This document shows, in pieces, positions 17,869-46,586 of a DNA stretch of 46,946 nucleotides. The first letter of the stretch is position 1, and the number at the start of each line of letters is the position of its first letter. Origin of the DNA: Syntrophorhabdales bacterium (GTDB lineage Bacteria; Desulfobacterota; Syntrophorhabdia; Syntrophorhabdales; WCHB1-27); assembly GCA_035541455.1 (NCBI GenBank), contig DATKNH010000041.1:1-46946 (forward strand), written 5' to 3'. The notes beneath the pieces are model-generated. The model made no database searches, was not told the DNA's origin, and saw only the letters and a list, made by a program, of their open reading frames with translations. The position numbers and the translations under genes were made by a program.

Positions 17869-19053
17869 TCAGCTAAAGAACTTTCCCTTCAGAATGAAAT
17901 TCCAGTACAGGCGCTTTAAAAGGCTGGTCTGCCACAACCAGTAAAGACGGGACTCCTTGATGGCCGATATGCTCTGAGCGTAATCGAATTCTGCAAAAAA
18001 AAGACTACCAAAGCCTGTATGGAGTGGTACCACCGTATTACCGTCATAGACGGCTGTGCCTTCTCCCCCATTGATACGCTCTTTGATGCGCCTTGCGATC
18101 ACTGCTGCCTGCCTTCGAGCCGCGGAGAACGTTTTTGCCGTAGGGTAATTTCCAGCATCGCCGATCGCATACACATTGTCGAAGTCCCTGTGGCGTAACG
18201 TGCTCTTGTCGCAGGTAACCCAACCGACGGGGTCCGCGAGTCCTTCGGAGTTCTGGATAATGTCAGCGCCTGAATGAGGGGGAATAATGGAAAGAAGATC
18301 GAAACCGATCTTTTCACCAAGGAAGTCCTCGCAAGACCCTTTTTTTGCATCGATTCTTGTTGGGGTGAACTCGATCTTCACTTCGATGCCACGTTCCCCG
18401 AGGAGCCGCTCCACATACCCGGCATAGGGTTCAATGCTGGGTGGCACCGAAGAATCGGGTGTGGTCAGGATGAAGCGGCACTTGTCACGGATTCCCCTGC
18501 GTCTCATCTCCGCTTCAGCTAGCAGGATGAAGCTTACAGGGGTTGCGGCGCACCTGATAGGCATCTCGCAGATGCATGAGACGATAGTACCACCTTCAAA
18601 CCTCTTAAGGGCATCGCGTAGCTTCAAAGCAGATTCAAGAAAGTAGAAGCTGAAAACATTCCTTCCGTTTTTCAGACCTTCCTTCAGGGCTTCAGGTTCA
18701 TCAGTTGTCAGCTTCGCACCCGTGGCAATGATCACATAATCAAAGGGAATAGTTCCGGATCGTGCGGTACTCACCGTGCCCTGAAGGTTTATTTTTCGGG
18801 CCTCGTCCGTAACGAGTGTTATCCCTCTGACAAGAAGGTCCTTTATGTCCCTGCTCAAATCTTCCTGTCTGTCGATGTCAAAGAGAAGCGTAAGGAGGCC
18901 GGGGTGATAAAAGTGTTTGCTGTTCTTCTCTATAAGGACAATTGCAGCACCCTCGCTCCCGATCTGCTTTCTGAGCCGGTTCGCGGCCATGATGCCGGCT
19001 GACCCGCCGCCGACAATCACGACCTGCTTCTTTTTCTCACCAGGCCTTATCAA
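17869..19053 (-). CDS. SQR/FCSD-like FAD-dependent oxidoreductase in the dsr operon
   Basis: A 394-residue flavoprotein. The FAD site is VVIVGGGSAGIMAANRL (about 11-27), ATGAK is at about 110-114, and the terminal flavin motif YAIGDAGNYPTAKT is at about 295-308. The segment CICEMPIRCAATP (160-172) matches the sulfide:quinone reductase redox-Cys region. The C-terminal half reads HTGFGSLFFAEFDYA, where SQRs I know carry their second redox Cys, and none is present; Cys 281 is the last one. The C-terminus ends with amphipathic aromatic helices (YWLWQTSLLKRLYWNFIL), suggesting membrane association. The TTG start at 19053 overlaps the upstream gene's TGA and follows GGAG. Possible function: flavin-linked electron transfer with the DsrM2/DsrK2-like subunits. 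Sulfide oxidation is only one option. Confidence 0.75.
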   Translation of the reverse strand: MIRPGEKKKQVVIVGGGSAGIMAANRLRKQIGSEGAAIVLIEKNSKHFYHPGLLTLLFDIDRQEDLSRDIKDLLVRGITLVTDEARKINLQGTVSTARSGTIPFDYVIIATGAKLTTDEPEALKEGLKNGRNVFSFYFLESALKLRDALKRFEGGTIVSCICEMPIRCAATPVSFILLAEAEMRRRGIRDKCRFILTTPDSSVPPSIEPYAGYVERLLGERGIEVKIEFTPTRIDAKKGSCEDFLGEKIGFDLLSIIPPHSGADIIQNSEGLADPVGWVTCDKSTLRHRDFDNVYAIGDAGNYPTAKTFSAARRQAAVIARRIKERINGGEGTAVYDGNTVVPLHTGFGSLFFAEFDYAQSISAIKESRLYWLWQTSLLKRLYWNFILKGKFFS

Positions 19054-20648
19054 AGCTGCTCCCAGGTAAGGAAGGGTTTTTGCAGATCAACCATAGCATT
19101 TACGATCAGTTCTACGAGCCCACCGTAGAAAATGCCGCTCTTCCGGGTTGCGCCATAAAACTCGAACATATCCCTCATGAGTCCTTTGCAGTTGGAACAG
19201 GGAGCGCAGACATACTTGTTTTGGGCAGGTTCGGAAACGTCAGCAAACGCTTCGAGGATCTGTTTCATCTTCATTCTTGCTGAAACGGAATTGCGCCAGT
19301 CAGGAAAATTCATTGACTGCATTATAGCAAAACCACTGCCGCCGCCACAGCAATAATTATCCACACCGTGGGGCTCCATTTCTCTGAATTGGGGGCAGAT
19401 GGCCCTTAGAATTTTTCTCTGTGGCTCCACGATGCCCATAAGGCGCACCATGTTGCACGGGTCGTGCAGGGTCACGGGAAAGTCGTTGCGTTTCGGGTCC
19501 AGCTTTATCTTTCCGCTCAGGACGAGATGTTCCAAAAGCGGTAATGCACTCTCTCTCGGGATATTAAGCTCTCCAGTCAAGACCCGATCTGCGATCACGA
19601 GGATTGCCTTGTGCGCGTGTCCGCATTCGCCCACGCAAATTTTCTTGACCTTGAGAGTGCGCGCCGCTTCTGCATGATGCACTGCTACCCGTGCCGCCTG
19701 GACATCGTCATACCATATGCCATAGTTGACTGCGTCGTAGCCGGCGATTTGACTCGAAAGCGTCCAGTCGATGCCGGCGGCATCAAAGAGGATTGCGAAG
19801 GCCTGGGGATTCTCGGGCCATGCCATAAACTCCCCCGCGTTGTGCACCAGCAGCACTTCTGCACCTTCTTTGTCCACGGGTATTTTTATTTTCCTGCCCG
19901 TCTTTTCCTCTATGTCGTCTTCCATGAAGGCGATGATGTTTGCAAGGGCTTTCGGCGTTATACCTGTGCTGGAACCCACCTTGAGCTGTTGGACCGTTCC
20001 CTGTTCGTGAAGTTCCCGGGCTGCGATCCCCATTTCCTGGCTGAAGAGTTTTCTGATTTCCCGGCTGATGAGCGCATTGTCGATACCCAAAGGACAGACC
20101 TGCGCGCATCGCCTGCAAAGGCTGCACCGGTACGCAAGTTCAGCCAGGCGTGCGAGAAGCGTAAAATTGAGCTCGATGTTGCTTGCCGTCAGCCTTGCGA
20201 GCAGGCTGTTTTCTTTTTTTAAGTACTTGTTGATGATGCGGCGGAGCACCTCGGGGCGAAAGGTCGGCCGGTAGATCTCCTGTTTTCCGCTCGACAGGTA
20301 CGCAGGGCAGGAGTCGTTGCAGAGCTGGCATTTCACGCAATAATCGAGTGAATGGAGGAGCGGCTGGATAAAGGTCCAGTTGTTTTCCTTCGATAGCAAT
20401 TTTTTGAGGCCTGACAGAAATTTAGCGACGAACTCCTCTTCCTCCTGAGCGTTGGCGGGTTTCGTCACGCCCAGGCCGACAATGCCGTCGAGGGAAGCTT
20501 CGTAGCGCTGGCGTTGCTCTTCGGTAAGCTCTTTGAGGGGACGCGGCTCGTCGTAGGGCGGCGGCAAGGGCAAGAGATCGGATGGTTCCAGTGTCACGAG
20601 CTGTTGGGCAGGCCTGGATAAATCTTCTATCTTCATCTTTCGTTTCAT
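19050..20648 (-). CDS. DsrK/HdrD-like iron-sulfur protein, second copy (DsrK2)
   Basis: A 532-residue paralogue of DsrK. Ferredoxin-type clusters are CVKCQLCNDSC (104-114) and CSLCRRCAQVC (175-185). HdrD-type motifs are VGECGHAH (about 339), LHDPCNM (about 394), CCGGGSGF (433-440) and CAPCSNCKG (481-489). The final motif makes the C-terminal site more complete than in the dsrK at 14335. The gene lies four bases after a NarI-like membrane gene and overlaps the SQR-like gene, so the three form one unit. Possible role: a disulfide or trisulfide reductase, or a quinone-linked electron module. DsrC is encoded next to it. Confidence 0.85.
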   Translation of the reverse strand: MKRKMKIEDLSRPAQQLVTLEPSDLLPLPPPYDEPRPLKELTEEQRQRYEASLDGIVGLGVTKPANAQEEEEFVAKFLSGLKKLLSKENNWTFIQPLLHSLDYCVKCQLCNDSCPAYLSSGKQEIYRPTFRPEVLRRIINKYLKKENSLLARLTASNIELNFTLLARLAELAYRCSLCRRCAQVCPLGIDNALISREIRKLFSQEMGIAARELHEQGTVQQLKVGSSTGITPKALANIIAFMEDDIEEKTGRKIKIPVDKEGAEVLLVHNAGEFMAWPENPQAFAILFDAAGIDWTLSSQIAGYDAVNYGIWYDDVQAARVAVHHAEAARTLKVKKICVGECGHAHKAILVIADRVLTGELNIPRESALPLLEHLVLSGKIKLDPKRNDFPVTLHDPCNMVRLMGIVEPQRKILRAICPQFREMEPHGVDNYCCGGGSGFAIMQSMNFPDWRNSVSARMKMKQILEAFADVSEPAQNKYVCAPCSNCKGLMRDMFEFYGATRKSGIFYGGLVELIVNAMVDLQKPFLTWEQL

Positions 20649-20652
20649 GAAC

Positions 20653-21558
20653 TCAGTTCTTCACCTGGTCGGCCCAGGATTGTCCACCTTTGATGTGAGG
20701 GGCTGCCCAGGTGACCTTCTGGCTCATCTGTTGCTGCAGTTCCCTTTCCAGCCGACTTCCCTGGAGATTCGGCTCATCATCCCACCGTATGAGGAAGAAA
20801 GCAAAAAGTCTGGTGATGTAATGCATCGACCGCGTAAAGGGCAGATAGATGAGGAACAGGTCAAAGAGCACGATGTGCAGTTCAGCGCCCGGGGCCACTG
20901 TGATGGGCCGCAAGGTGATCAGTCCCATCCAGAATTCCCTGTACTCGGAAAAAGTGGGGTCGACAAAATACCATGCGTAGAGTCCACTCAGGAACACCAA
21001 CAGACAGAAGAAATAGGTGAAATAATTTTGTGGAGTGGCGTAAAGCCGAAGATCTTCATCACTGAACCTTTTGATGAAAATTCCAATGCTGCCAAGAAGA
21101 CCGCTTACAAAACTGACAACCCCCATGAGGAGCAGAACGTAATAGAAAAGCCTTCCGGCTAAAAAAGAAGATTCCCCAGAGATCGGCAGCCCTAGAAGCG
21201 TGGCTGCAGCCGCGAAAAAAGTGAGGATGTGAAAACCGATGATCAGGATAAAGCCTACGTGCCATGGGTAGAGCGCCAGCCAGTAACTCTTGTGGCGCTT
21301 AAAGTATTCGCTCATCGAGAAGTATTCTTGAAGAAGGAAGAGGATGCTGCGCAAACGGCTTTTACTGCGGGTGCCATTGATCCAGTCGATTTCCTCGAAA
21401 TAGGACCCCCCGTACCTGTATCGCTCTTCATGCAGGACCGGATAAAGCTCCCAGCGCAGGTGGCGGGGTAGACGCAACCACTTTACCATCTTCGACGTAT
21501 ACATCGCGATGATAAAGATGTAGCCGATATAGGTCATTACGGCAAGAAATACTGCCAC
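20653..21558 (-). CDS. NarI/DsrM-like cytochrome b membrane protein (DsrM2)
   Basis: A 301-residue membrane protein with one N-terminal helix (VFLAVMTYIGYIFIIAMYTS) and a NarI-like four- to five-helix core from about 88. Candidate haem-ligand His residues are WHVGFILIIGFHILTF (about 99-114) and AELHIVLFDLFLIYLPF (about 225-241). Conserved features include YATPQNYFTYFFCLLVF. It is shorter than dsrM (331) and lacks its N-terminal double-helix extension. GTG start behind AGGGGGAGC. It probably anchors the DsrK2-like protein and exchanges electrons with menaquinone. Confidence 0.85.
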   Translation of the reverse strand: MAVFLAVMTYIGYIFIIAMYTSKMVKWLRLPRHLRWELYPVLHEERYRYGGSYFEEIDWINGTRSKSRLRSILFLLQEYFSMSEYFKRHKSYWLALYPWHVGFILIIGFHILTFFAAAATLLGLPISGESSFLAGRLFYYVLLLMGVVSFVSGLLGSIGIFIKRFSDEDLRLYATPQNYFTYFFCLLVFLSGLYAWYFVDPTFSEYREFWMGLITLRPITVAPGAELHIVLFDLFLIYLPFTRSMHYITRLFAFFLIRWDDEPNLQGSRLERELQQQMSQKVTWAAPHIKGGQSWADQVKN

Positions 21559-21623: not shown

Positions 21624-21941
21624 CTATACGCAACCCGTCGGTTTCGGCAGCCCTGCGACTTTGCATGCCCCTTTCGCCGGTCCGCCCGGGAAGAGTTCGT
21701 AAATCTTTTTGAGGTCGAGGCCGGTCTGTTTCACAAGCATACGGACCGGTGGGGCGATCTCAAACTTGAGATAGTAGTCCCTGAGGTAATTAACCAGCTT
21801 CCAGTGGTCTTCGCCCATCGGATAAGCATTTTCCGCTTTAGCCAGGTCTTCTGCCACTTCCTTATTCCACTTCCCCGGCTCCTGAATGAAGCCGTCCTCA
21901 TCGATTTCGATTTCCTGTCCACCTAGTGTGGCCTTTGCCAT
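21624..21941 (-). CDS. dsrC: DsrC, sulfur-carrier co-substrate of DsrAB
   Basis: 105 residues, exactly the usual length. The C-terminal arm GACKVAGLPKPTGCV keeps both redox cysteines, Cys93 and the penultimate Cys104, required to form the DsrC trisulfide during sulfite reduction; TusE proteins lack the first one. Other family segments are DEDGFIQEPGKWNKEVAEDL and PPVRMLVKQTG. Start ATG with AGGAGGG. It is placed between dsrN/YHS and the second dsrMK-like pair, so the trisulfide product may be handed to either DsrK. Confidence 0.96.
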   Translation of the reverse strand: MAKATLGGQEIEIDEDGFIQEPGKWNKEVAEDLAKAENAYPMGEDHWKLVNYLRDYYLKFEIAPPVRMLVKQTGLDLKKIYELFPGGPAKGACKVAGLPKPTGCV

Positions 21942-22034: not shown

Positions 22035-22193
22035 TCAACTTTTGCCGCTGTCCTTGATGAAGCTTGCCGGCTGTTCATCAAACTGTTTCTTGCAGGCCTT
22101 GCTGTCAAAGTAATAGGTGATCTCGCTCACCGTGCTCGTGCCTCGCGCCTTCTTCTCTTCAACCTCTACCTTGCAGACCGGACAAATTGCCAT
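22035..22193 (-). CDS. Small YHS-domain protein
   Basis: 52 residues. It carries CPVCKVEVEE at the start (Cys 4 and 7) and TYYFDSKACKKQFDEQPASF, the YHS motif variant (Tyr-Tyr-Phe-Asp-Ser with Cys, then a helix). YHS domains are thought to bind metal and are often found with heavy-metal or Fe-S proteins. The ATG at 22193 has a strong AAGGAGGG site although it overlaps the last 35 bases of dsrN in another frame. The location between dsrN and dsrC suggests a link to DsrAB maturation or metal handling, which is inference only. Confidence 0.8.
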   Translation of the reverse strand: MAICPVCKVEVEEKKARGTSTVSEITYYFDSKACKKQFDEQPASFIKDSGKS

Positions 22194-23691
22194 AGCTACC
22201 CTCCTTCGCCTCCTTTTTCTCAACCTTACTTCGAGTCTTACCCTGTGCCTTGTATTTTCTTGCGAGAGCAGCAAAAGCCGGTGCCCAGCCCGGTGTGCCA
22301 AGCGCATGGAGATGCGCGTAGGAAGCCAGCAGGTTCTTGTATGCGAACCCGTCAACGCGACCGTCAATGCCGTGGCCACGCACAACCTTGTAGCACCAGT
22401 TTGCCTTCTGAAGCGCATCTTCGTTGCTGCTATGGTGCTCTGCTGCGATGAATCGTGAGTGGTGGAATTCGTGGCCGCGCAGCACCGTCCCTTGCGCAAA
22501 CCAGTGATTGTCAGCAGCAACCTCCAGCTCCATATATCCGTGCCCTTGAGGCCGGTTCGAGATCTCAACCTCCCCCGGTATCTTTCCGACCATCTCGTAG
22601 CGCTTTCCCTGCCAACGTATGGCCCGGGTGAGATACATCAGCCCGCCGCACTCGGCATACGTCGGAAGACCGCTCTCTATCTGTCGGCCTATGTCCCGGC
22701 GAAGCTCCTTGTTCTCCTCCAGCTCGGCGGCATAGAGCTCCGGGAAGCCGCCACCGATATAAAGCCCGTGAATCTGCGGAAGCACTCTGTCCGAAAAAGC
22801 GTCGATCCGCACGATGTCTGCCCCGGCATTGTGCAGTGCTTCAATGTTTTCTGGATAATAAAAGCTGAAAGCCCGGTCGGCTATGACCCCTATCCTGCAC
22901 GTGGGTTTTGCTGGCGGAGTACCGGGGACTTCGGGAATCAAATGATCCGGCGCCCGCTCTGCCAGCTCGATGATTGCCTCCAGGTCGAGATGTGGTGCAA
23001 CCTTGTCGCAGACAGCAGACACAATTGATTCGGCCTGTGCCTTCTCGCTCGATGGAATGAGGCCGAGGTGCCGCTCCGCAATAGAAAGTGCCGGATTCCT
23101 GGGAACTGCGCCCAAGACAGGAATATTGCAGTGGGATTCCACAGCGTCTTTGAGTTTTTCTACGTGACGACTTCCGGATACCCTGTTCAGGATCACTCCA
23201 GCCAGATCCGTCCCCGACTCGAAATGCTGGAAACCGGATACGAGTGCTGCGATGCTGCGTGTCATTCTTTCTGCATTGACCACCAGGATCACAGGCGCAC
23301 GCAGTAGGCGTGCGAGCCATGCCACGCTTCCTTCACCGTCGGCTGCAGGTGAATCAAAAAGACCCATGGCTCCTTCGACGATTGCGATGTCGGCTCCGCG
23401 TGATCTCCGGGCAAACGATGTAAGCAACGCGTCTTCAGGCATGAGAAAATTGTCGAGGTTGAAACACTCATTCCCGCTGGCAAGGCGAAGCCATGACGGA
23501 TCGATATAATCGGGGCCTTTTTTGAATGACTGAACAGCCAGCCCTCGGTTCTTTAGCATCCTCGCCAGAGCGATAGCCACCGTGGTCTTCCCGGACCTTC
23601 CCTGCGGGGCCGCAATCACAAGGCGGGGAGGCAGCCGCCTCATTAAGGAGCTATCTGATCGTTTGTCAGTCCTTTTTCTTTCTGTAGCCAC
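22159..23691 (-). CDS. dsrN: DsrN, cobyrinic acid a,c-diamide synthase-like siroheme amidase
   Basis: A 510-residue glutamine amidotransferase of the CbiA/CobB family. The N-terminal ATPase domain has P-loop GRSGKTTVAIALA (about 31-43) and FKKGPDYIDPSWL. The C-terminal class I amidotransferase domain has YIGGGFPELYAAEL (about 311-324), the nucleophile region YAECGGLMYL (about 347-356) and HEFHHS. In dsr clusters DsrN is proposed to amidate siroheme to the sirohydrochlorin amide used by DsrAB. Start is uncertain: GTG 23691 has only a weak site, and ATG 23643 would give 494 residues. The Lys/Glu-rich C-terminus overlaps the YHS gene. Confidence 0.92.
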   Translation of the reverse strand: MATERKRTDKRSDSSLMRRLPPRLVIAAPQGRSGKTTVAIALARMLKNRGLAVQSFKKGPDYIDPSWLRLASGNECFNLDNFLMPEDALLTSFARRSRGADIAIVEGAMGLFDSPAADGEGSVAWLARLLRAPVILVVNAERMTRSIAALVSGFQHFESGTDLAGVILNRVSGSRHVEKLKDAVESHCNIPVLGAVPRNPALSIAERHLGLIPSSEKAQAESIVSAVCDKVAPHLDLEAIIELAERAPDHLIPEVPGTPPAKPTCRIGVIADRAFSFYYPENIEALHNAGADIVRIDAFSDRVLPQIHGLYIGGGFPELYAAELEENKELRRDIGRQIESGLPTYAECGGLMYLTRAIRWQGKRYEMVGKIPGEVEISNRPQGHGYMELEVAADNHWFAQGTVLRGHEFHHSRFIAAEHHSSNEDALQKANWCYKVVRGHGIDGRVDGFAYKNLLASYAHLHALGTPGWAPAFAALARKYKAQGKTRSKVEKKEAKEGSYGNLSGLQGRG

Positions 23692-23949: not shown

Positions 23950-25014
23950 TTACCACTTGAATTGAGTTGTGGTCCTGTACGTTTCAACCGCATGTGTAAA
24001 ATCGTCAATATGCTGTTCGGTAAACGGTATCTCGGTCCGGCGGAAGAAAGCTTCCCATCCTATGCGTTCTATCCACTCACCTATGCGTTCATAGGGTTTG
24101 GCGCCGGCAGCGTAAACGTTTATGATCTTCTTGATGGTCTCCACTACCTCGGGCCAGCGCGGTGGCCTGTTGGGAAGGAACGGCACTACCATACGGGAGA
24201 ACATCGGAGCTTTCCGCGCATTTGGCACTTTGCCGCCGACATAGATCGCAACCCCGTCACCTTCGGCATCGGCTAACGGCATGGCCGGACAGACCGTGAA
24301 GCAGTTACCGCAGTACATGCACAGGTCCTCTTTTACCACAACGCTTTTCACGTTCTGGTCAGGGTGGCGCCGTATGGCTCCTGTAGGGCATGACTGAATA
24401 GTGGTCGGTATCTCGCACTGCGCGACTACCCTGTCGTGGTCAGGCCTTGGAGGTTTTGTGTGAACACCGACGACGGCAATGTCGGAGCAGTGTACTGCGC
24501 CGCACATGTTGATGCAACAGCCGACCGCAATGCGCACGTGGTTTGGAAGCTTTGTCTCCACAAAGTGCTCATAGACTTCGTCCATGATCGCCTTCACGAG
24601 GCCCGATGCATCAGTTGCGGCACTGTGACAATGGATCCAGCCCTGCGTGTGGACTATGTTCGAAATGCCGGGACTGGTCCCCCCGACGGGAAGACCAAGC
24701 TTCTTCAGGTCGGCTATTATCAGGTCCACGTTTTTTTCGTTCGGGGTGAGAAACTCGATGTTGTAACGGCTCGTGAACCGGAGGTGCCCGTCACAATACT
24801 TGTCCGCCACATCGCAGATGTCGCGAATGAAATCGACGCTGACCAGCCTCGGGGAGCCGGCTCGCACCGAGAAGAGCACATCACCATTCTCGGCCACGTG
24901 CTTGAGCACGCCGGGCCTCGGTATCTCGTGGTACTTCCATGTTCCGTAATTCTTCTTTATGATCTCCGGGAGCATGTCGCGAAAATCGGGTGGTCCTATG
25001 TCTGTTCTGCCCAT
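23950..25014 (-). CDS. dsrB: DsrB, dissimilatory sulfite reductase beta subunit
   Basis: 354 residues. It catalyses six-electron reduction of sulfite together with DsrA, and the siroheme next to the DsrB-type Cys set is the catalytic one. Visible Cys ligands: Cys129 ([13 protein letters not shown]), Cys166/167 and Cys171 ([12 protein letters not shown]), and a ferredoxin insert with Cys209 and [11 protein letters not shown] (232-242). The C-terminal [11 protein letters not shown] matches the family ending. Start ATG 25014 behind AGGAGGC, 19 bases after dsrA. Nothing suggests decay, so the subunit should be functional. Confidence 0.97.
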
Positions 25015-25033
25015 GATTCGCCTCCTGTTATCC

Positions 25034-26203
25034 TTACTTGTCAAAAAAGACGTACGGGTTCGACCTGGGATACTTGACCATCTGCGGTACGGGCGGAAGC
25101 CCCATCTCCCGCAGGAACGTCTTAAACCCGAGTCTTTCTATTAACTCTGCAAGCCTCTCTCTTGTTCTGCCGTTCTCATCCCACCAATCCCAGATTTTCC
25201 TAAGCAGATCTTTAAGCTCTTCGTAGGGGGGCTCCATTTTCATGAAGGGCACGAGCACCCACGACAGGTAGGCGCCCTTAATGATCGGCGCCTTGCCTCC
25301 CACGAGAATCGTGGCACCTGTCTCTACACCGGGCCTCACTGCCTTGGGCATCACGTTAATGCAGTGCATACAGCGCACACAGTCTTCAGCAGAGAGTTTC
25401 AATTCTTTGGCCTTTGGATCCCAGGCAAGGGCTTCCGTCGGGCATCTGCGTACCACGAGGTTCTCAATGTCCAGACCACCTTTGGCATACTCCTTAACAG
25501 CTTGCTGGTCGATGCGCAGGGCATCGCGCCACGTGCCGATGATGGTGAAGTCTGCGCGGGCAATTGCCGCAACGCAATCATTGGGGCAGCCAGACGCCTT
25601 GATTTTGAACTTGTACGGCCACCTCGGTCTGTGGATTTCGTCCTGGAATTCAACGGTCAGATCATGGATCAGTCCAAGCGTGTCGATGTTTGACCATTCG
25701 CAACGCGCCTTGCCGACGCAACCTGCAGGCGTGCGGAGCGCGGAGCCTGAGCCTCCCAGATCAAACCCGGCATCAGAGAGTGTGTCAAAACAGGGCTGCA
25801 GGTTCTCTGTAGTTGTCCCGAGAAGAATGATGTCCCCTGTAGAGCCGTGAAAGTTGGTCATGCCGCTGCCATACTTTTCCCAGATATCACAGATCGTGCG
25901 AAGTGATTTCGTGGTGTAAAACCATCCTGCAGGCTGGTTTATGCGCATGGTGTGAAATGACGCGGCACCAGGAAACTTCTCCGGCGCGTCGCAGTATCTT
26001 CCTATCACGCCAGCACCATAGCCGGTGACACCTACTATGCCTCCATGTTTCCAATGGGTTATCCTGTCTTTGTACGATTGTTCCTGGATGCCGAGCAGGT
26101 CTTTGGCCGCGGCGTTCTTCTTTGCCATACGTTTGATCTCTGTCACATAGCTCGGCCATGGGCCTTTCTCCAATTCATCCAACAAGGGTGTGTCGTCCGC
26201 CAT
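25034..26203 (-). CDS. dsrA: DsrA, dissimilatory sulfite reductase alpha subunit
   Basis: 389 residues. The siroheme-linked [4Fe-4S] ligands are CVGKARC (162-168) and CPNDC (206-210), and the ferredoxin domain has Cys254 and CVRCMHC (275-281). [20 protein letters not shown]-type substrate-channel sequence is present at about 102-121. It ends at SNPYVFFDK, about 25-30 residues earlier than Desulfovibrio DsrA as I recall it, so the C-terminal tail is shortened. The ATG at 26203 follows AGGAGGT. It is the first gene of the long minus-strand dsr cluster. Its upstream region (26204-26298) holds TTGATG and GATAAA boxes but no clear-cut promoter, and is shared with a divergent small gene. Confidence 0.97.
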
Positions 26204-26298
26204 GCAAACCTCCTTTTGCACCACCGGTTTTTGACGCTATACACTTCAGGGAAGCTAGGAGTTTATCACAAAGATTCAAAGTACATCAAGGGGCATTT

Positions 26299-26520: not shown

Positions 26521-28032
26521 TTACTGGTCTTCGGCGACTTCGCGATACTTAGCCACCTTCTTTGCGACAAAAGGCATGATTGAGGTGATCAGCAGGAGAG
26601 CGGCGAGGCCGAGGGTCACGGCGGAGATGGGACGGGTAAAGAACGTCAGGAAACTTCCCTCCGACACAAGCAGCGCCTGCCTGAGGTTAAGATCGAGCAT
26701 GGGTCCCAGTACGAAGGCTAATACCAGGGGCGCCCCTTCGTAGTCGAACTTCCTGAAGAGGTAGCCCACGACTCCAAAAACGATCATGATAATAACGTCG
26801 AACACGCTGTTGTTCATGCTGTAGGCGCCCACAAGACAGAAGAGGAGAATAAGAGGGTAGAGGAGCTTCGCAGGAATCTTCAACACCTGGACCCACATGG
26901 GGATCAGAGGAAGGTTTAACACAAGGAGCATGACGTTACCCAAATACATGCTGCTGATCACTCCCCAGAAAAGGTCGGGGTGATCTTTGAGAAGGAGAGG
27001 CCCAGGCGTGACACCGTGGATGAGAAAAGCACCAAATAAAACAGAGAGACTTACATTAGGCGGAATGCCGAGCGTAAGGAGCGGAATGAAGGATGAGGAA
27101 GCAGCGGAGTTGTTGGCAGCTTCGGGAGAGGCCACACCCTCAATTGCTCCTGTTCCAAATTTCTGAGGTTCCTTTGAGACCCTCTTTTCCAGACCGTAGG
27201 ACATAAAGGAAGCGAGAACCGGGCCTCCACCAGGCAGGATACCGAGGAAGAAGCCTACAAGTGTTCCGCGCACCAGCGCCCACTTTGATTGAATCCAGTC
27301 GAGCTTCGACGGGAAGAGGTGCTTGAGCTTTGCCCTTATCACCTCCTGCGTGACTGCCTGTTCAAGGTTGATGAGCACCTCGCCGATGCCGAACAGACCC
27401 ATGGCCACCGGTGCAATGCCGACTCCATCGAAGAGTTCAAGGATGCCGAATGTCATGCGCGGACTGGAAGTGATGGGGTCCAAACCGATGTTGCTGAGCA
27501 TGAGGCCGAGGCATGCCATCATAACTGCTTTCAGCATCGATCCGTGAGAGAGATAGGTCACAAAGGTCAGGCCGAGAATAATGAGCGCAAAGTATTCGTG
27601 AGGACCAAAGTCAAGCGCAAAGCGGGAGAGCGGTTTCGCGAACAGCATCAGTCCGACGATACCTACCGTCCCTGCGATGAAGGAGCCAAAGGCAGCCATG
27701 CCGAGCGCCGGGCCCGCTCTGCCTTTAAGCGCCATCTGGTGGCCATCCATGCAAGTAATCACAGATGCCGCTTCGCCAGGGATGTTGACGAGAATTGATG
27801 TCGTTGAGCCTCCGTACATGGCCCCATAGTAAAGACCCGCGAGCATGATGATGGATCCTGTAGCTGAAATTTTGAACGTTATAGGCAAGAGGATCGATAT
27901 CGCGCCGACAGGGCCGATGCCCGGCAGCACTCCCACGAGCGTTCCCAGCACGGACCCTATGAAACAGTAAAAGATATTCTCGGGTTGTAAGGCGACGGAG
28001 AACCCGTATAACAGACTGTTCAGGGCTTCCAC
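26521..28032 (-). CDS. tctA: Tripartite tricarboxylate transporter large permease (TctA)
   Basis: A 503-residue membrane protein with about 11-12 helices. TctA signatures are GVLPGIGPVGAISILLPITF (about 34-53), YYGAMYGGSTTSILVNIPGE (about 67-86) and GILPGGGPVLASFMSYGLEK (about 260-279). It is the main transport channel of the TTT system for carboxylates. GTG start behind AGGGGTGAG, 28 bases after tctB. The substrate is set by the TctC protein at 28651 and cannot be read from sequence. Confidence 0.93.
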   Translation of the reverse strand: MEALNSLLYGFSVALQPENIFYCFIGSVLGTLVGVLPGIGPVGAISILLPITFKISATGSIIMLAGLYYGAMYGGSTTSILVNIPGEAASVITCMDGHQMALKGRAGPALGMAAFGSFIAGTVGIVGLMLFAKPLSRFALDFGPHEYFALIILGLTFVTYLSHGSMLKAVMMACLGLMLSNIGLDPITSSPRMTFGILELFDGVGIAPVAMGLFGIGEVLINLEQAVTQEVIRAKLKHLFPSKLDWIQSKWALVRGTLVGFFLGILPGGGPVLASFMSYGLEKRVSKEPQKFGTGAIEGVASPEAANNSAASSSFIPLLTLGIPPNVSLSVLFGAFLIHGVTPGPLLLKDHPDLFWGVISSMYLGNVMLLVLNLPLIPMWVQVLKIPAKLLYPLILLFCLVGAYSMNNSVFDVIIMIVFGVVGYLFRKFDYEGAPLVLAFVLGPMLDLNLRQALLVSEGSFLTFFTRPISAVTLGLAALLLITSIMPFVAKKVAKYREVAEDQ

Positions 28033-28060
28033 AGCTCACCCCTGTGACACCGGTCTTGCT

Positions 28061-28516
28061 TTACCATCTGAAAGGCCCCCTTGGGAACTCGATCTGCAGC
28101 GCATAATGGAAAATGGCATAGGTCAATGCAACCGTCACAAGCGCACTCACCACCACAACCCAGACCTTCATTCTACCCACGGCGTAGAGTACAGCCATGA
28201 AAGCTGTGGTTGCAATGACGAAGCCCACTTTCACGAGAACGAGACTGTAAAGCACGAGGGCGACCACCGCTATGACAACATTACCCCAGCTCAGCCCGTG
28301 CCACAACTCGGCAATTCCTTGTTTCCCGCTGCTAGCCACAAGAGCCTTTACCACAAGGATTATTGAGAGCAGGCCGAAGAGGACACTCGACCAGAAGAGC
28401 ACGAAGCCGGCTCCCGGTGCGGAGACCGTCCCTACCCCCAGGTCAAGGGCTTGCGTGAGCACAAAGATCGCGGCTGCTAACCAGAAAAGGCCGCTTACGA
28501 GGTCACGTTTGTTCAC
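28061..28516 (-). CDS. tctB: Tripartite tricarboxylate transporter small permease (TctB)
   Basis: 151 residues, four hydrophobic helices (for example LVSGLFWLAAAIFVLTQALD, GNVVIAVVALVLYSLVLVKV, VGFVIATTAFMAVLYAVG, VWVVVVSALVTVALTYAIFH). Length and helix layout match TctB. GTG start with GGAG seven bases upstream. It sits between tctC and tctA as usual. Confidence 0.87.
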   Translation of the reverse strand: MNKRDLVSGLFWLAAAIFVLTQALDLGVGTVSAPGAGFVLFWSSVLFGLLSIILVVKALVASSGKQGIAELWHGLSWGNVVIAVVALVLYSLVLVKVGFVIATTAFMAVLYAVGRMKVWVVVVSALVTVALTYAIFHYALQIEFPRGPFRW

Positions 28517-28528
28517 GCATCAACTCCG

Positions 28529-28645
28529 GTGAAGCGATGAAGCGTTAAAGCGAGGAAGCGAGGAAGCGTAGAAGCGTATAAGCGGCACTACAAAATGAGT
28601 GGTTTGCCCGCATCATCGCTTCATCCCTTCTTCGCTTCGTCGCTT
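28529..28645. repeat. Octamer tandem array with inverted octamers (tctC-tctB gap)
   Basis: Seven consecutive 8-base units of the form NNgAAGCG (GTGAAGCG, ATGAAGCG, TTAAAGCG, AGGAAGCG twice, TAGAAGCG, TATAAGCG) span 28529-28584. After 29 unique bases, four inverted units (CATCGCTT, CATCCCTT, CTTCGCTT, CGTCGCTT) span 28614-28645. The two halves could fold into a long imperfect hairpin in the tct transcript. Confidence 0.85.
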
Positions 28646-28650
28646 ATCTT

Positions 28651-29652
28651 TCAGTACGGTTGTGTAGCCGGCTCTTTAATGAGACCTGTTTCTTTCAGCG
28701 TCTTTTCGAGCCTTACCCACGATTCTTTCAGAAAGCGATCATACTCCTTACTATTGTAGTAGACCGGCACCAGATCCAATTTGTCCATGACCGTCTTCAC
28801 TTCCGGGCTGTCCTTCGCTTTGGTGAAGGCGCTTTCAAGCTTTGCGACCACGTCCGCAGGAAGACCGGCCGGTCCCAGAATAGAGAAGACAGTCTCATTT
28901 ACGAAATCATAGCCCAGTTCTTTGAGCGTTGGCACATCCGGCTGCTTGGGATTCCGCTTTTCCTCCGTATATGCAAGGATCCGCACCTGACCGGCTCTGG
29001 CGTAAGGAACGTGCTCCGGCCCGGATGAGCATACATCGACATGCCCTCCAAGGAGCGCAGTCATTGCGTCAGCGGTGCCCTTATATGGCACGTGTATCCA
29101 TTTTATCTTCTCCTGGTGTTCCAAATAGGCCATGGCATGATGCTGGGCGGACCCCACGCCCGTGCTGCTGTATTTGATTTTGTTCGGGTTCTTCCTGGCG
29201 TAGTCGAGAAGTTCCTTCAAGGATTTCCATGGAGCGTCCGATTTGACCACGATGGCGTTCTGCGGCGTGGCATAACCGATTATGGGCGTGAAACTCTTCA
29301 AAGGCTTATACGTCACCTTCTGCATTTGAGGTGCGCGTACTATGCCGGTGCTTGTACCGGCGCAAAGCGTGTAGCCATCCGGTTTTGCGTTTGCTACCAG
29401 CGCCAGCGCAATAGTACCCGCGGCTCCTCCCTTGTTGTCGACAACGATGGGCTTGCCAAGATATTTTTCGGCTGCTGACGCCATGGCACGTGAGGCCATA
29501 TCCATCGAGCCGCCGGGGGCAAAAGCCACGTCCATAGTGATCGGTCTGTCAGGATATTCTGCTCTTGCAGACGGAAGGAAGGACGACGCGAGAAGGAGAA
29601 TAGACAGCGCCACGGCCGCAACAAATTTCCCAGATTGCCAATGTATCTTCAC
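28651..29652 (-). CDS. tctC: Tripartite tricarboxylate transporter binding protein (TctC/Bug family)
   Basis: A 333-residue periplasmic receptor with signal peptide (VALSILLLASSFLPSARA, cleavage near residue 31). Bug-family features: YPDRPITMDVAFAPGGSMDM (about 33-52), GKPIVVDNKGGAAGTIALAL, and YSSTGVGSAQHHAMAYLE. It captures an organic acid for TctAB. GTG start behind GAGGAG. The gene is first in its operon, with a candidate promoter at 29681-29709. Confidence 0.93.
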   Translation of the reverse strand: MKIHWQSGKFVAAVALSILLLASSFLPSARAEYPDRPITMDVAFAPGGSMDMASRAMASAAEKYLGKPIVVDNKGGAAGTIALALVANAKPDGYTLCAGTSTGIVRAPQMQKVTYKPLKSFTPIIGYATPQNAIVVKSDAPWKSLKELLDYARKNPNKIKYSSTGVGSAQHHAMAYLEHQEKIKWIHVPYKGTADAMTALLGGHVDVCSSGPEHVPYARAGQVRILAYTEEKRNPKQPDVPTLKELGYDFVNETVFSILGPAGLPADVVAKLESAFTKAKDSPEVKTVMDKLDLVPVYYNSKEYDRFLKESWVRLEKTLKETGLIKEPATQPY

Positions 29653-32610: not shown

Positions 32611-34194
32611 GTGAAAAAAGGGAAGGTCTATCTCGTCGGCGCCGGGCCCGGTGACATCGGGCTGATGACGATCAAGGGACTCAGGTGTCTGCAACGGGCG
32701 GACGTCGTCATCTACGATTTTCACATCAACGCCCAGGTGCTCAACCGGATAAGAGGGGAAGCAGAATTTATTTACGCGGGCAAGCGTGGCGGCCACCACG
32801 CCATGACCCAGGATGAGATCAACGAAGCGCTCATCGGACGCGCATCTCGAGGAAAGACCGTCTGTCGCCTGAAAGGCGGCGACCCCTTTGTTTTCGGACG
32901 GGGCGGTGAAGAGGCTGAGGTTCTCGCCCGGGCAGGCATCCCTTTCGAAATTGTGCCCGGTGTCAGCTCGATCACCGCTGTTCCGGCGTGTGCAGGCATA
33001 CCCTTGACACACAGGGACCATGCTTCCTCGTTTGCAGTGATTACGGGGAATGAGGCAGCCACAAAGACGCGGAGTTCCATTTACTGGTCGGGGCTTGCGA
33101 AGAGTTACGACACGCTCGTTTTTCTTATGGCTGCCAGGAACGTTTCGGCCATAAGCCGGAACCTCATAGATAACGGCAAGCCTCCCGAAACACCGGCTGC
33201 ACTGATTCGCTGGGGAACCAGGCCCGATCAAAAAGTAGTCGTTGGTACGCTGGAGACAATCGGCGGTCTGCAGAAGGAGAGTAATATCGGGTCTCCGGCA
33301 GTCATGGTAGTGGGGGACGTGGTGCGGCTCAGAGAATCCCTTGCATGGTATGAAAAGAAGCCCCTCTTCGGTCATCGTATTTTGATTACGCGGGAGTATA
33401 CAGCCGATTATGAACCGCTTGAAGAGATGGGCGCAGAGATTTTTGAGTTCCCCACCATCAAGACGGTCGCTCCGAAGAGCTACAGAGCTCTAGACCAAGC
33501 GATAGCGAGGATTGAAACATACGACTGGCTTGTCTTCACCAGCGCCAACGGCGTGCGCTATTTCATGGGGAGGTTCCTGAGCAAAGGACGCGACGTGAGA
33601 GACCTGAAAGGGATCCGGCTCTGCGCGGTGGGATCGAAGACCGCAGAGGCTCTCGCGGTTTACGGGATGAAGGTGGAACTCGTACCAGACGAATTCAACG
33701 CAGAAGGGCTTTCAAAAGCGTTTCTACGTCTCTCAGGCCCAAGCACAGGAAGTCTTAAGGGTGTGCGGTTTCTGCTGCCGAGGGCCGAGGAGGCTCGTGA
33801 ACTTTTTCCGGCGCAGATACGCTCATTGGGCGGAGAGATAGAAACTCCGGCTGCGTACCGGAGCGTAAAATCTGAAAGGCACGGCAAGCTGATGAAGCGC
33901 TTTCTCCTTGAGGGCCGCATATCGGTGGCGACCTTCACGAGCGGCGCTACATTTACAAATTTTCTGGATATCGTGGGGCGCGACGCACTGCCGATGCTTC
34001 AAAAGGTTGCGATTGCCGCCATCGGTCCGGTAACTAAAAAGACGATTGAGAAAAGCGGGCTGGAAGTGCATATACTACCTAATGAGGCCACTATAAACGC
34101 GATGGTGCAGGAAATTATAGAGTGGGCGAAAAGGCAGGGGTCACGGGTCACTGGGCATGGGTCACGAGGAGAGGGATGGAAAGGGGAGGAATAA
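32611..34194 (+). CDS. CobA-HemD fusion: uroporphyrinogen-III C-methyltransferase / synthase
   Basis: A 527-residue bifunctional protein. Residues 1-245 are SUMT: VYLVGAGPGDIGLMTIKGL (about 4-22), CRLKGGDPFVFGRGGEEAE (about 87-105) and PGVSSITAVPACAGIPLTHR (about 118-137). Residues about 255-510 are uroporphyrinogen-III synthase (ILITREYTADYEPLEEMGAE, FTSANGVRYFM, FTSGATFTNFL). The product is precorrin-2, the substrate of the enzyme at 2524 in siroheme synthesis for DsrAB. GTG start with a weak ribosome site, so translation may be coupled to the ligase upstream. The final ~18 residues (RVTGHGSRGE) derive from GGGTCAC simple repeats and are not family sequence. Confidence 0.93.
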   Translation: MKKGKVYLVGAGPGDIGLMTIKGLRCLQRADVVIYDFHINAQVLNRIRGEAEFIYAGKRGGHHAMTQDEINEALIGRASRGKTVCRLKGGDPFVFGRGGEEAEVLARAGIPFEIVPGVSSITAVPACAGIPLTHRDHASSFAVITGNEAATKTRSSIYWSGLAKSYDTLVFLMAARNVSAISRNLIDNGKPPETPAALIRWGTRPDQKVVVGTLETIGGLQKESNIGSPAVMVVGDVVRLRESLAWYEKKPLFGHRILITREYTADYEPLEEMGAEIFEFPTIKTVAPKSYRALDQAIARIETYDWLVFTSANGVRYFMGRFLSKGRDVRDLKGIRLCAVGSKTAEALAVYGMKVELVPDEFNAEGLSKAFLRLSGPSTGSLKGVRFLLPRAEEARELFPAQIRSLGGEIETPAAYRSVKSERHGKLMKRFLLEGRISVATFTSGATFTNFLDIVGRDALPMLQKVAIAAIGPVTKKTIEKSGLEVHILPNEATINAMVQEIIEWAKRQGSRVTGHGSRGEGWKGEE

Positions 34195-34637
34195 TGGAGA
34201 AAAGAGGGAAGGTAAGAGATCTGCAGTCCCGGATCGCTGATGCGATGAAGCAATGGCAGAAGATGGAGGATGCATCTCTTGCCTCCACGGGGCGCATCAT
34301 CGAGAAGACGACGAATCCGATCATACGCCTGATCATGGAGATTATCCAGCGTGATTCACAGATGCACCACAACGTGGAGAAGTGGGTTGCGGAGAGCATG
34401 GAGAGCGCAACTGTTTCCTTCACGCCCGACGAGCTGAGAAAAGTGTGGACGATGATCGAGAGCCATATCGAGCTTGAAGAGAAGATGATCGATACGGTAA
34501 AGAAGTTACTTCCCGCGCTCAAGGGTAAGCGCATGGTGGTGCAGGAGTATCTGCTCGATTACCTGCTGAAGGACGAGACCAAGCACGCGTACCTGCTGCG
34601 GCGTCTGGAGATCATCAAGCGCGGCATGCTCCCCTAG
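34194..34637 (+). CDS. Helical protein coupled to cobA-hemD, possibly ferritin-like
   Basis: 147 residues, all-helical in character. Its ATG overlaps the cobA-hemD stop (TAATG), with GGAGGA just upstream. Possible metal-ligand pairs are MHHNVEKWVAESME, ESHIELEEKMIDTV and KDETKHAYLLRRLE; the E/D-x-x-H spacing is reminiscent of ferritin-like or hemerythrin-like four-helix proteins. I do not recognise a named family. The link to siroheme synthesis makes iron supply or redox sensing plausible, but this is inference. Confidence 0.6.
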   Translation: MEKRGKVRDLQSRIADAMKQWQKMEDASLASTGRIIEKTTNPIIRLIMEIIQRDSQMHHNVEKWVAESMESATVSFTPDELRKVWTMIESHIELEEKMIDTVKKLLPALKGKRMVVQEYLLDYLLKDETKHAYLLRRLEIIKRGMLP

Positions 34638-44770: not shown

Positions 44771-45931
44771 TCAGCTGCTTTTTTTATTGTAGAACGGAGA
44801 CATGCTCCGCAGGAAGTCTACAGATTTCTTGAGCGCACCGAAAACGACATCCACTTCCTCCAGGGTATTTTCTATGCCGAAGGAGAAGATAAGCGTGCCC
44901 TGGGTCGTCATGTAGTCGCGGCCGCAGGAGACAAGCACGTGTGAGGCCCGCAACGAACCTGTGGCGCATGCCGACCGGGTGGAAACGCAAATCCCCTCCT
45001 CGTCCAGCATCAGCACCAGCGATTCCCCTTCCACATACTTCACTGAGCACGAGATCAGGTTTGGCAGGCTTTTGGTGGGATGGCCGTTGATGATTATCTC
45101 ATCGATAGTTGAAAGGCGTTCCAGGAATCTCTTCTTGACCTGGTTGAGATGCTCCAGCCTCGATGACATTTCTCTCTTTGCCAGCTCTGCTGCCTTACCC
45201 ATGCCTACGATGCCTATCATGTTGTGTGCACCGGCCCTGAGATTCTGTTCCTGGATGCCTCCGTCCAGAAGTGGAATGATTTTGGTTCCGGGGCGGACAT
45301 AGAGGGCCCCCACGCCTGCAGGGCCGTAGAATTGATTCGCAGCTATGCTCAGCAGGTCAACCCCTAACTCGTTGACGTCCGTCGGCACTACTCCGCCGGA
45401 TGCGACTGCATCGCTGTGAAAGGTTATGCCTCTCTTCTTCGTAATCTCGCCGATCTCTGCTATGGGCTCGAGGGTCCCGATCTCGTTGTTTGCATGCATG
45501 ATGCTGACAAGGATGGTCTCATCGGTGATCGCTTTCTCAACATCCTTCGGATCGACCAATCCGTATTCGTCCACCGGAAGGGACGTTACATCATATCCGA
45601 GGTGCATCAGCATGCGCACGGAGCGGAGCACTGCCTGGTGCTCAATATTGGATGTGATGATGTGTTTGCCTTTCTCGGCAAGTGCAAAGGCCACGCCCTT
45701 GACAGCGTGATTGATGGACTCGGTGCCGCCGGAAGTGAAGATCACCCCCTCCGGATTGGCATTGATGAGCTGCGCCACATCGTTGCGGGCTTTCTCCAGG
45801 GCCTCAGCTGCCGCATCCCCCAAACGATGCTGGCTCGTCGGATTGCCGTATCCGTTATCGATGTAGCCTATCATTGCCTGCTTCACTTCCGCGTGAAGCG
45901 GTGTCCCTGATATATTATCCAAATAGATCAT
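44771..45931 (-). CDS. NifS/IscS-like protein lacking the PLP-binding lysine
   Basis: 386 residues from ATG 45931 (AGGGGA upstream); a longer frame to 46069 would overlap the NifU-like gene. Fold-type I aminotransferase motifs are present: SGGTESINHA (67-76), HANNEIG (146-152), and the mobile active-site Cys322 in RSACATGS. The cofactor lysine motif, normally SAHKxYGPKG, reads AANQFYGPAG: Gln200 stands for Lys and Asn199 for His. The PLP-contacting Gln of HxDAxQ is also changed (HSDAVASGG). It therefore probably cannot form the PLP Schiff base. Archaeoglobus fulgidus IscS is a described case of such a loss that still pairs with IscU. Likely role: scaffold partner of the NifU-like protein using free sulfide. 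Confidence 0.88.
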   Translation of the reverse strand: MIYLDNISGTPLHAEVKQAMIGYIDNGYGNPTSQHRLGDAAAEALEKARNDVAQLINANPEGVIFTSGGTESINHAVKGVAFALAEKGKHIITSNIEHQAVLRSVRMLMHLGYDVTSLPVDEYGLVDPKDVEKAITDETILVSIMHANNEIGTLEPIAEIGEITKKRGITFHSDAVASGGVVPTDVNELGVDLLSIAANQFYGPAGVGALYVRPGTKIIPLLDGGIQEQNLRAGAHNMIGIVGMGKAAELAKREMSSRLEHLNQVKKRFLERLSTIDEIIINGHPTKSLPNLISCSVKYVEGESLVLMLDEEGICVSTRSACATGSLRASHVLVSCGRDYMTTQGTLIFSFGIENTLEEVDVVFGALKKSVDFLRSMSPFYNKKSS

Positions 45932-45968: not shown

Positions 45969-46478
45969 CTACGCCGTTGATTTGCCGCAGTTGGCGCAGA
46001 TCGGCGCACCGGAGGCGACTTCGTGTTCACAATAAGGGCAGCGGCAGTGGGTGTCCTTTGCGTGAACATGCTCGTCTTTACCCCCCCGTTCCTTCCTGAT
46101 TCTTCCGGCCTGACGATCCAGGTAATTCATGATCGCCTTGTGGAGGGCTTCGGGCCCAAGGTGTGAACAGTGGAGTTCGTTCTTCGGCAGCTCTCCGAGG
46201 TCTGTCGCGAGCGTTTTTGCATTGATCTGCAAGGCTTCGTCAAGGGTTTTACCCTTCGCTTTCTCAGTGACAATGCTCGATACGGCAACTGCAGCGCCGC
46301 AGCCCAGCGTCTCGAACCTGACGTCAGCCAGTCGTCCTTCCCTCACCTTTATGGTTATTGTGGTCATGTCGCCGCAAACCGGGTTGCCCACCTCTCCGAT
46401 GCCGTCGAAATCCTCTACTTTTCCTCTGTTGCGCGGATTCTGAAAATGCTCTTTAACCAGGTCTGAATAGGGAGACAT
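45969..46478 (-). CDS. NifU/IscU-like Fe-S scaffold with C-terminal zinc-ribbon tail
   Basis: 169 residues. The IscU domain (about 1-125) has all three ligand cysteines: NPVCGD (about 33), LGCGAAVAVSS (about 61) and ELHCSHLG (about 104). The tail after KERGGKDEHVHAKD carries CRCPYCEHEVASGAPICANC, a four-Cys zinc-ribbon-like module, rather than the usual NifU C-terminal domain. The ATG at 46478 (about 10 bases after AGGAGG) is preferred over GTG 46487, which is too close to the ribosome site. It precedes the nifS-like gene by 37 bases. Upstream, 46488-46586 is AT-rich with a TATACT box and no clear -35. Confidence 0.9.
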   Translation of the reverse strand: MSPYSDLVKEHFQNPRNRGKVEDFDGIGEVGNPVCGDMTTITIKVREGRLADVRFETLGCGAAVAVSSIVTEKAKGKTLDEALQINAKTLATDLGELPKNELHCSHLGPEALHKAIMNYLDRQAGRIRKERGGKDEHVHAKDTHCRCPYCEHEVASGAPICANCGKSTA

Positions 46479-46586
46479 ACGTGACACACCTCCTTGCGAG
46501 CACGGTTTGTACGCTTAAGTATAATCTGTTTGTAATTATTTTTAAAGTGACTCAGGGCTTTACCCGGTGTGGCGCAACTGAGAAAT

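Follow-up and report, generated by a model that had tools for sequence, protein, structure and literature searches.

A NifS homologue lacking the PLP lysine is conserved beside NifU and linked to dissimilatory sulfite reductase genes in Desulfobacterota

Here we describe a NifS-like protein from a Syntrophorhabdales bacterium (Desulfobacterota; GenBank assembly GCA_035541455.1) in which the PLP lysine of cysteine desulfurases has been lost together with a histidine, a glutamine and an arginine of the active site. The gene adjoins one for a NifU scaffold and is linked to genes of dissimilatory sulfite reduction. We consider it somewhat better than an even bet, with a probability of roughly 0.55, that the protein is a desulfurase-dead partner of NifU, in which Cys322 acts as a ligand or landing site and which is fed by sulfide, or by sulfide-derived persulfide, from DsrAB-DsrC. 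The DNA analyzed, referred to throughout as the window, is a stretch of 46,946 nucleotides of contig DATKNH010000041.1. Its features are listed in Table 1.

Table 1. Positions in the window of the genes and active-site codons discussed in the text.
Feature	Position	Strand	Remarks
Lys-less NifS-like protein	44771..45931	(-)	386 aa; PF00266 E 8.8e-80
Ile348 replacing conserved active-site Arg (E. coli R354)	44888..44890	(-)	
Cys322 kept, loop cysteine (E. coli C328)	44966..44968	(-)	invariant in 84/84 Lys-less relatives having the column
AANQFYGPAG motif, residues 197-206, replacing S(A/G)HKxYGPKG	45314..45343	(-)	
Gln200 codon CAA at PLP lysine position (E. coli IscS K206)	45332..45334	(-)	
Asn199 codon AAT at His position (E. 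coli H205)	45335..45337	(-)	
Ala177 replacing PLP-contacting Gln (E. coli Q183)	45401..45403	(-)	HSDAVA vs HxDAxQ
Asp174 kept (E. coli D180)	45410..45412	(-)	invariant in 85/85 Lys-less relatives
His98 kept (E. coli H104)	45638..45640	(-)	invariant in 85/85 Lys-less relatives
NifU/IscU-like scaffold directly upstream of nifS	45969..46487	(-)	PF01592 E 7e-41
Zinc-ribbon-like NifU tail (CRCPYC...CANC)	45972..46049	(-)	PF13248 E 2e-4, under cut-off
dsrA, dissimilatory sulfite reductase alpha	25034..26224	(-)	TIGR02064 E 1.9e-170
dsrB	23950..25044	(-)	TIGR02066 504 bits, over cut-off
CobB/CbiA-like gene at dsrN place	22159..23691	(-)	TIGR00379 467 bits
dsrC (match extent)	21627..21926	(-)	TIGR03342 E 1.2e-34
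dsrM-like	20653..21558	(-)	PF02665 E 3.8e-8
dsrK-like	19050..20648	(-)	NF045796 DsrK 355 bits, under cut-off 400

Results

Active-site residues of the lysine-less NifS

The region homologous to NifS runs from the ATG at 45931 (MIYLD...) to 44771, with an alternative in-frame start lying upstream at 46069. Both the PF00266 match and the AlphaFold (AF2) model (pLDDT 87, with low values in loop 323-327) place the protein in the aminotransferase class V fold. The model gave TM-scores of 0.92-0.94 with E. coli IscS and human Nfs1, and of about 0.91-0.93 with A. fulgidus IscS. The best NCBIfam model was TIGR03402 NifS, at 442 bits, which is under its cut-off of 530.75. Amongst the characteristics of group I cysteine desulfurases, the fold and the loop cysteine are present, whilst the PLP lysine, the conserved arginine and a sufficient TIGR03402 score are missing.

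Active-site residues were surveyed in an alignment of 55 lysine-bearing and 85 lysine-less bacterial relatives, in which the numbering of the window NifS is that of E. coli IscS minus 6 throughout. The PLP lysine was found in 55/55 lysine-bearing and 0/85 lysine-less proteins, as was the active-site arginine, the site of which holds no charged residue in the window NifS. The corresponding figures were 54/55 and 2/85 for the PLP-contacting glutamine, and 54/55 and 0/85 for the histidine of the HK pair (E. coli H205). This separation of the two sets is far above chance. The first-pass annotation of the window had described the replacement of lysine by Gln200 and of histidine by Asn199, the loss of the HxDAxQ glutamine and the retention of Cys322, all of which were confirmed; the change of arginine to Ile348 is an additional loss, absent from that annotation.

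At the lysine site, the 85 lysine-less proteins carry Gln (65), Pro (13), Thr (4), Ile (2) or Leu (1), a variability which makes a catalytic role for the glutamine unlikely. The first-pass annotation had named a different lysine taking over the role as an outcome that would overturn its reading. The alignment yielded none: K17, K266 and K383 are over-represented in the window's group, and K328 in a second lysine-less group described below, with none of these being both conserved set-wide and absent from the lysine-bearing set. In E. coli IscS, the K206A, H104Q and Q183E variants have zero desulfurase activity, some PLP is still held by K206A, and R354K is active (PMC9978102).

Conservation and phylogeny

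The lysine-less NifS is conserved under purifying selection, with a dN/dS of about 0.03-0.08 (0.055 for the intact paralogue). Over 20 Syntrophorhabdales genomes encode the AANQFYGPAG-type motif, at 64-78% identity. In a sample of 394 Desulfobacterota genomes with a completeness of at least 90%, 56 encode a close relative (E ≤1e-125), and the lysine is absent from all 56. A second, more distant lysine-less group is found in Chloroflexota, Omnitrophota, Aminicenantes, Planctomycetota and some Desulfobacterota, with a gene order that is mostly S then U.

Phylogenetic trees were computed with the active-site columns removed. In a tree of 34 rows, the bacterial lysine-less rows split from the lysine-bearing rows with a support of 100/99, and A. 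fulgidus IscS grouped with lysine-bearing archaeal rows (support 97/96). A single origin that included A. fulgidus IscS, tested as one clade on the same 34 rows, was 12 log units worse (AU p 0.052). The lysine was therefore probably lost more than once; judging from these trees, its loss in A. fulgidus IscS is probably independent of that in the bacterial set. A partial NifS that retains the lysine was also noted in a genome of the same family (G002; L222, 1-717). Its front half resembles the lysine NifS and its back half the window's group, and it begins at a contig end, i.e., it may reflect recombination or a chimeric assembly.

Other NifS-like genes of the genome and the order

An intact lysine NifS (L002, motif GHKVYAPKG) is encoded elsewhere in the same genome, not adjoining the lysine-less nifS, together with another PLP desulfurase-like gene (L001). 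Because of these two genes, the suggestion in the first-pass annotation that a desulfurase would be dispensable in such a cell is unsupported. Downstream of the intact lysine NifS (L002, 2783-4042) are genes for a ferredoxin-domain protein and then another conserved protein, a neighbourhood which we take to be, perhaps, a sulfide-using homocysteine cluster.

A second type of iscU-linked NifS occurs in the order (L122-L137 and L226-L245; e.g., G001:C309, G005:C4 and G010:C50). It too is lysine-less, with the motif S(P/A/S)HQFYGPKG or similar, which ruled out the identification of these pairs as intact lysine IscS; the glutamine and arginine are likewise missing, and the cysteine is kept in a longer loop. 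An apparent loss of this cysteine proved to be an alignment artefact of the longer loop (SGSACASNMMAVDETGLKASH), with the residue kept in 11/11 sequences checked. The second type groups with the lysine-bearing PDB entry 9wep (support 97/94), and a single clade uniting it with the first lysine-less set was marginally rejected (AU p 0.048). Six genomes have a matching iscU locus without an adjoining NifS. No second iscU-NifS pair was seen in the window's own genome, the assembly of which is 97% complete; given that relatives have such a pair, this absence may be an assembly gap.

Pairing with NifU

The NifU of the window keeps the cluster cysteines and aspartate (VCGD, LGCG, HCS), has LPKNE instead of LPPxK, and is the sole NifU_N match in the assembled genome. 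Its zinc-ribbon-like tail is common to the NifU partners of the NifS orthologues. In all 56 Desulfobacterota genomes with the lysine-less nifS, a NifU gene adjoins it, and amongst the compared loci only nifU and nifS recur together. NifU has LPKNK/E for LPPxK in most lysine-less pairs of the window's type, a motif which we regard as a further sign of a specialised NifU-NifS pair.

Two neighbours of nifU were observed in addition. A YeiH-like membrane protein (PF03601) is encoded beside it, usually divergently, in 12 loci (L041, L151-L154, L157, L158, L163, L164, L166, L168 and L169). A small protein without a confident Pfam match (window 34122-34637; L158, L224) recurs beside nifU in G002 and beside dsrA in G033.

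Linkage to dissimilatory sulfite reduction

The Dsr cluster of the window (26224-19050) lies on the same contig and strand as nifS, about 18.5 kb away. The order nifU-nifS-dsrA-dsrB-dsrN is found in three other genomes (G039, G010 and G189); nifU-nifS lies right before dsrA in G007, whose contig breaks off within that gene, whilst in G032 and G033 the distance to dsrAB is no more than about 3 kb. No dsrD match was obtained in the window's own genome, a result that carries no weight because the controls were silent as well. Across the Desulfobacterota sample, dsrA was present in 52 of the 56 genomes with the lysine-less NifS as compared with 151 of the 338 others (Fisher p 1.5e-12, uncorrected for kinship). 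The lysine-less NifS is absent from 151 of the 203 dsrA-bearing genomes. Within the order, 20 genomes have both genes, three NifS only, one dsrA only and 22 neither (p 1.2e-8, also uncorrected for kinship), with contrasts in NifS and dsrA presence occurring within genera g5 and g14. Of the three genomes with NifS only, G023 gave a strong match for dsrC, and its lack of dsrA may be no more than a gap. A search for dsrA was also made in the 34 genomes behind fetched loci; for the second lysine-less group, the genomes behind 17 loci included one with a full dsrA and one with fragments.

No aprA was found in the searched genomes of the order Syntrophorhabdales, so these bacteria would more likely use sulfite or organosulfonates than reduce sulfate. 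The first-pass annotation had proposed that proteins of this kind be mapped onto sulfidogens. In the present case, sulfidogen would not stand for sulfate reducer; the product of DsrAB, with whose genes the lysine-less NifS co-occurs, is sulfide.

Directly upstream of dsrA lies a TctABC-type transporter set (window 26521-29652), conserved in G001 (L225), which possibly imports an organosulfonate or a comparable compound. Beside dsrK, the region 17869-19053 of the window resembles the model for type III selenoprotein sulfide:quinone reductase (281 bits, under the cut-off of 525).

Discussion

The lysine-less NifS has parallels in archaea. Archaeoglobus fulgidus IscS has been crystallised with IscU (PDB 4eb5, 4eb7, 4hvk, 4r5f; Marinoni 2012; Yamanaka 2013; Pagnier 2014), 4r5f being the structure of a D199K variant; it carries Asp at the lysine site, and is reported to be inactive and to ligate the IscU cluster through its own cysteine (PMC7585200). 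As in the window NifS, the lysine is lost, the histidine is replaced by Asn and the glutamine by Ala, and the cysteine is kept, whereas the arginine is replaced by Leu rather than by Ile348. The combination that typifies the A. fulgidus protein, i.e., an absent lysine, a kept cysteine and an IscU partner, thus recurs in the window. The two differ in that the bacterial proteins have Gln, Pro or Thr where the archaeal one has Asp, and form what is probably a separate lineage, linked here to dsrAB. Methanosarcina acetivorans IscS1, also archaeal, is similar by its description as an IscS homologue beside IscU without the lysine (PMC7585200).

Two further systems can be compared. The minimal ISC system (MIS) is likewise a two-gene module of NifS/IscS and NifU/IscU, but is described with a cysteine desulfurase (PMC12192291), whereas the S subunit of the window is, judging by its sequence, without the catalytic residues. 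The SMS system (SmsCB) of Methanocaldococcus jannaschii similarly provides Fe-S assembly able to use sulfide in an anaerobe (PMC12192291), but has a SufBC-type scaffold and no NifS-fold partner. In a literature search beyond whose reach most subscription papers lay, the lysine-less precedents were archaeal cases only. What is new here is a bacterial variant of the known lysine-less IscS, with a strong tie to sulfide production.

We propose that this NifS/IscS-fold protein no longer desulfurates cysteine, because the residues that hold and drive PLP (lysine, histidine and glutamine) are gone, as is the active-site arginine. It would be kept as a dimeric partner that docks the scaffold NifU, with the loop residue Cys322 serving as a ligand or a landing site whilst a cluster is being formed. 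Sulfur would enter as inorganic sulfide, which DsrAB-DsrC would produce within the cell, or as a persulfide derived from it. The features retained without exception are the fold, the pairing with NifU and the cysteine on the loop, again as in A. fulgidus IscS. The catalytic parts have been lost, yet the protein is strictly conserved and travels with sulfide-producing genes, which argues that sulfide or related reduced sulfur probably feeds cluster assembly. A sulfide-fed NifU partner like A. fulgidus IscS had already been put forward in the first-pass annotation. The joint losses with the cysteine kept, the NifU neighbour, the linkage to dsrAB and the archaeal parallel speak for that idea; the second lysine-less group, which is mostly without dsrA, does not.

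Given that the second group is mostly without dsrA and partly beside DsrE2, a persulfide relay has to be taken seriously as an alternative, although we regard it as unlikely. Here a carrier (DsrE2, TusA/YedF, DsrC or polysulfide) would load sulfane sulfur onto Cys322, which would hand it to NifU, making NifS a sulfurtransferase and not a mere scaffold. The loop cysteine is found in every lysine-less sequence examined, the second iscU-linked type included, but a cluster ligand would need it too. In eight loci of the second lysine-less group or its allies (L053, L054, L056-L059, L034 and L101), the lysine-less nifS or nifS-iscU is followed closely by a DsrE2 gene (PF13686), a candidate persulfide donor there. 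No DsrE2 match was found, however, in the window or amongst the loci fetched for its own group. The Dsr cluster of the window does include dsrC, the product of which is one of the carriers considered.

His98 and Asp174, which contact PLP in IscS, are invariant here, although a pure scaffold has no obvious need of them. They count against the desulfurase-dead scaffold, as do the PLP retained by E. coli IscS K206A (PMC9978102), the scarcity of dsrA in the second group, the many dsrA-bearing genomes without this protein, the dsrA statistics being uncorrected for kinship, and the coexistence of an intact lysine NifS. These two residues, the behaviour of K206A and the intact paralogue would all fit a protein that binds PLP non-covalently, or another small molecule, and performs an altered chemistry, either by itself or paired with that paralogue in a heterodimer whose inactive half it would form. 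This appears improbable: the residue at the lysine site varies, the arginine and glutamine contacts have been lost too, and the intact paralogue is not adjacent. An assembly error or a decaying copy, suggested by the 173 contigs of the assembly and the position of the gene close to a contig end, has next to no chance and is refuted by conservation in other genomes, since the same change occurs in open frames in dozens of independent genomes with a dN/dS below 0.1; the first-pass annotation was therefore justified in arguing, from the joint loss of contacts, against a random error, the lysine being absent from 85/85 relatives.

Returning to the desulfurase-dead partner of NifU, we put forward, tentatively and with more doubt than confidence, a broader version of it. 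The bacterial proteins might constitute a deep NifS-like branch, apart from the archaeal case, in which a former desulfurase has come to serve NifU as a partner that accepts sulfide or persulfide. In Desulfobacterota its work would be coupled to sulfite reduction by Dsr, whilst part of the second group shows an association with DsrE2. That His98 and Asp174 never vary would then indicate a continuing function of the former PLP pocket, e.g., binding another small molecule or guiding sulfur as it comes in.

Fe-S assembly of the ISC/NIF type is regarded as drawing its sulfur universally from cysteine desulfurases, and the proteins described here are named NifS by annotation pipelines. The natural Gln, Pro and Thr variants provide a bacterial system for testing the proposal. 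If it is true, many anaerobes would make clusters from inorganic sulfur via an ISC-type scaffold, which bears on Fe-S assembly before oxygen and on the sulfur donor of ancestral ISC systems.
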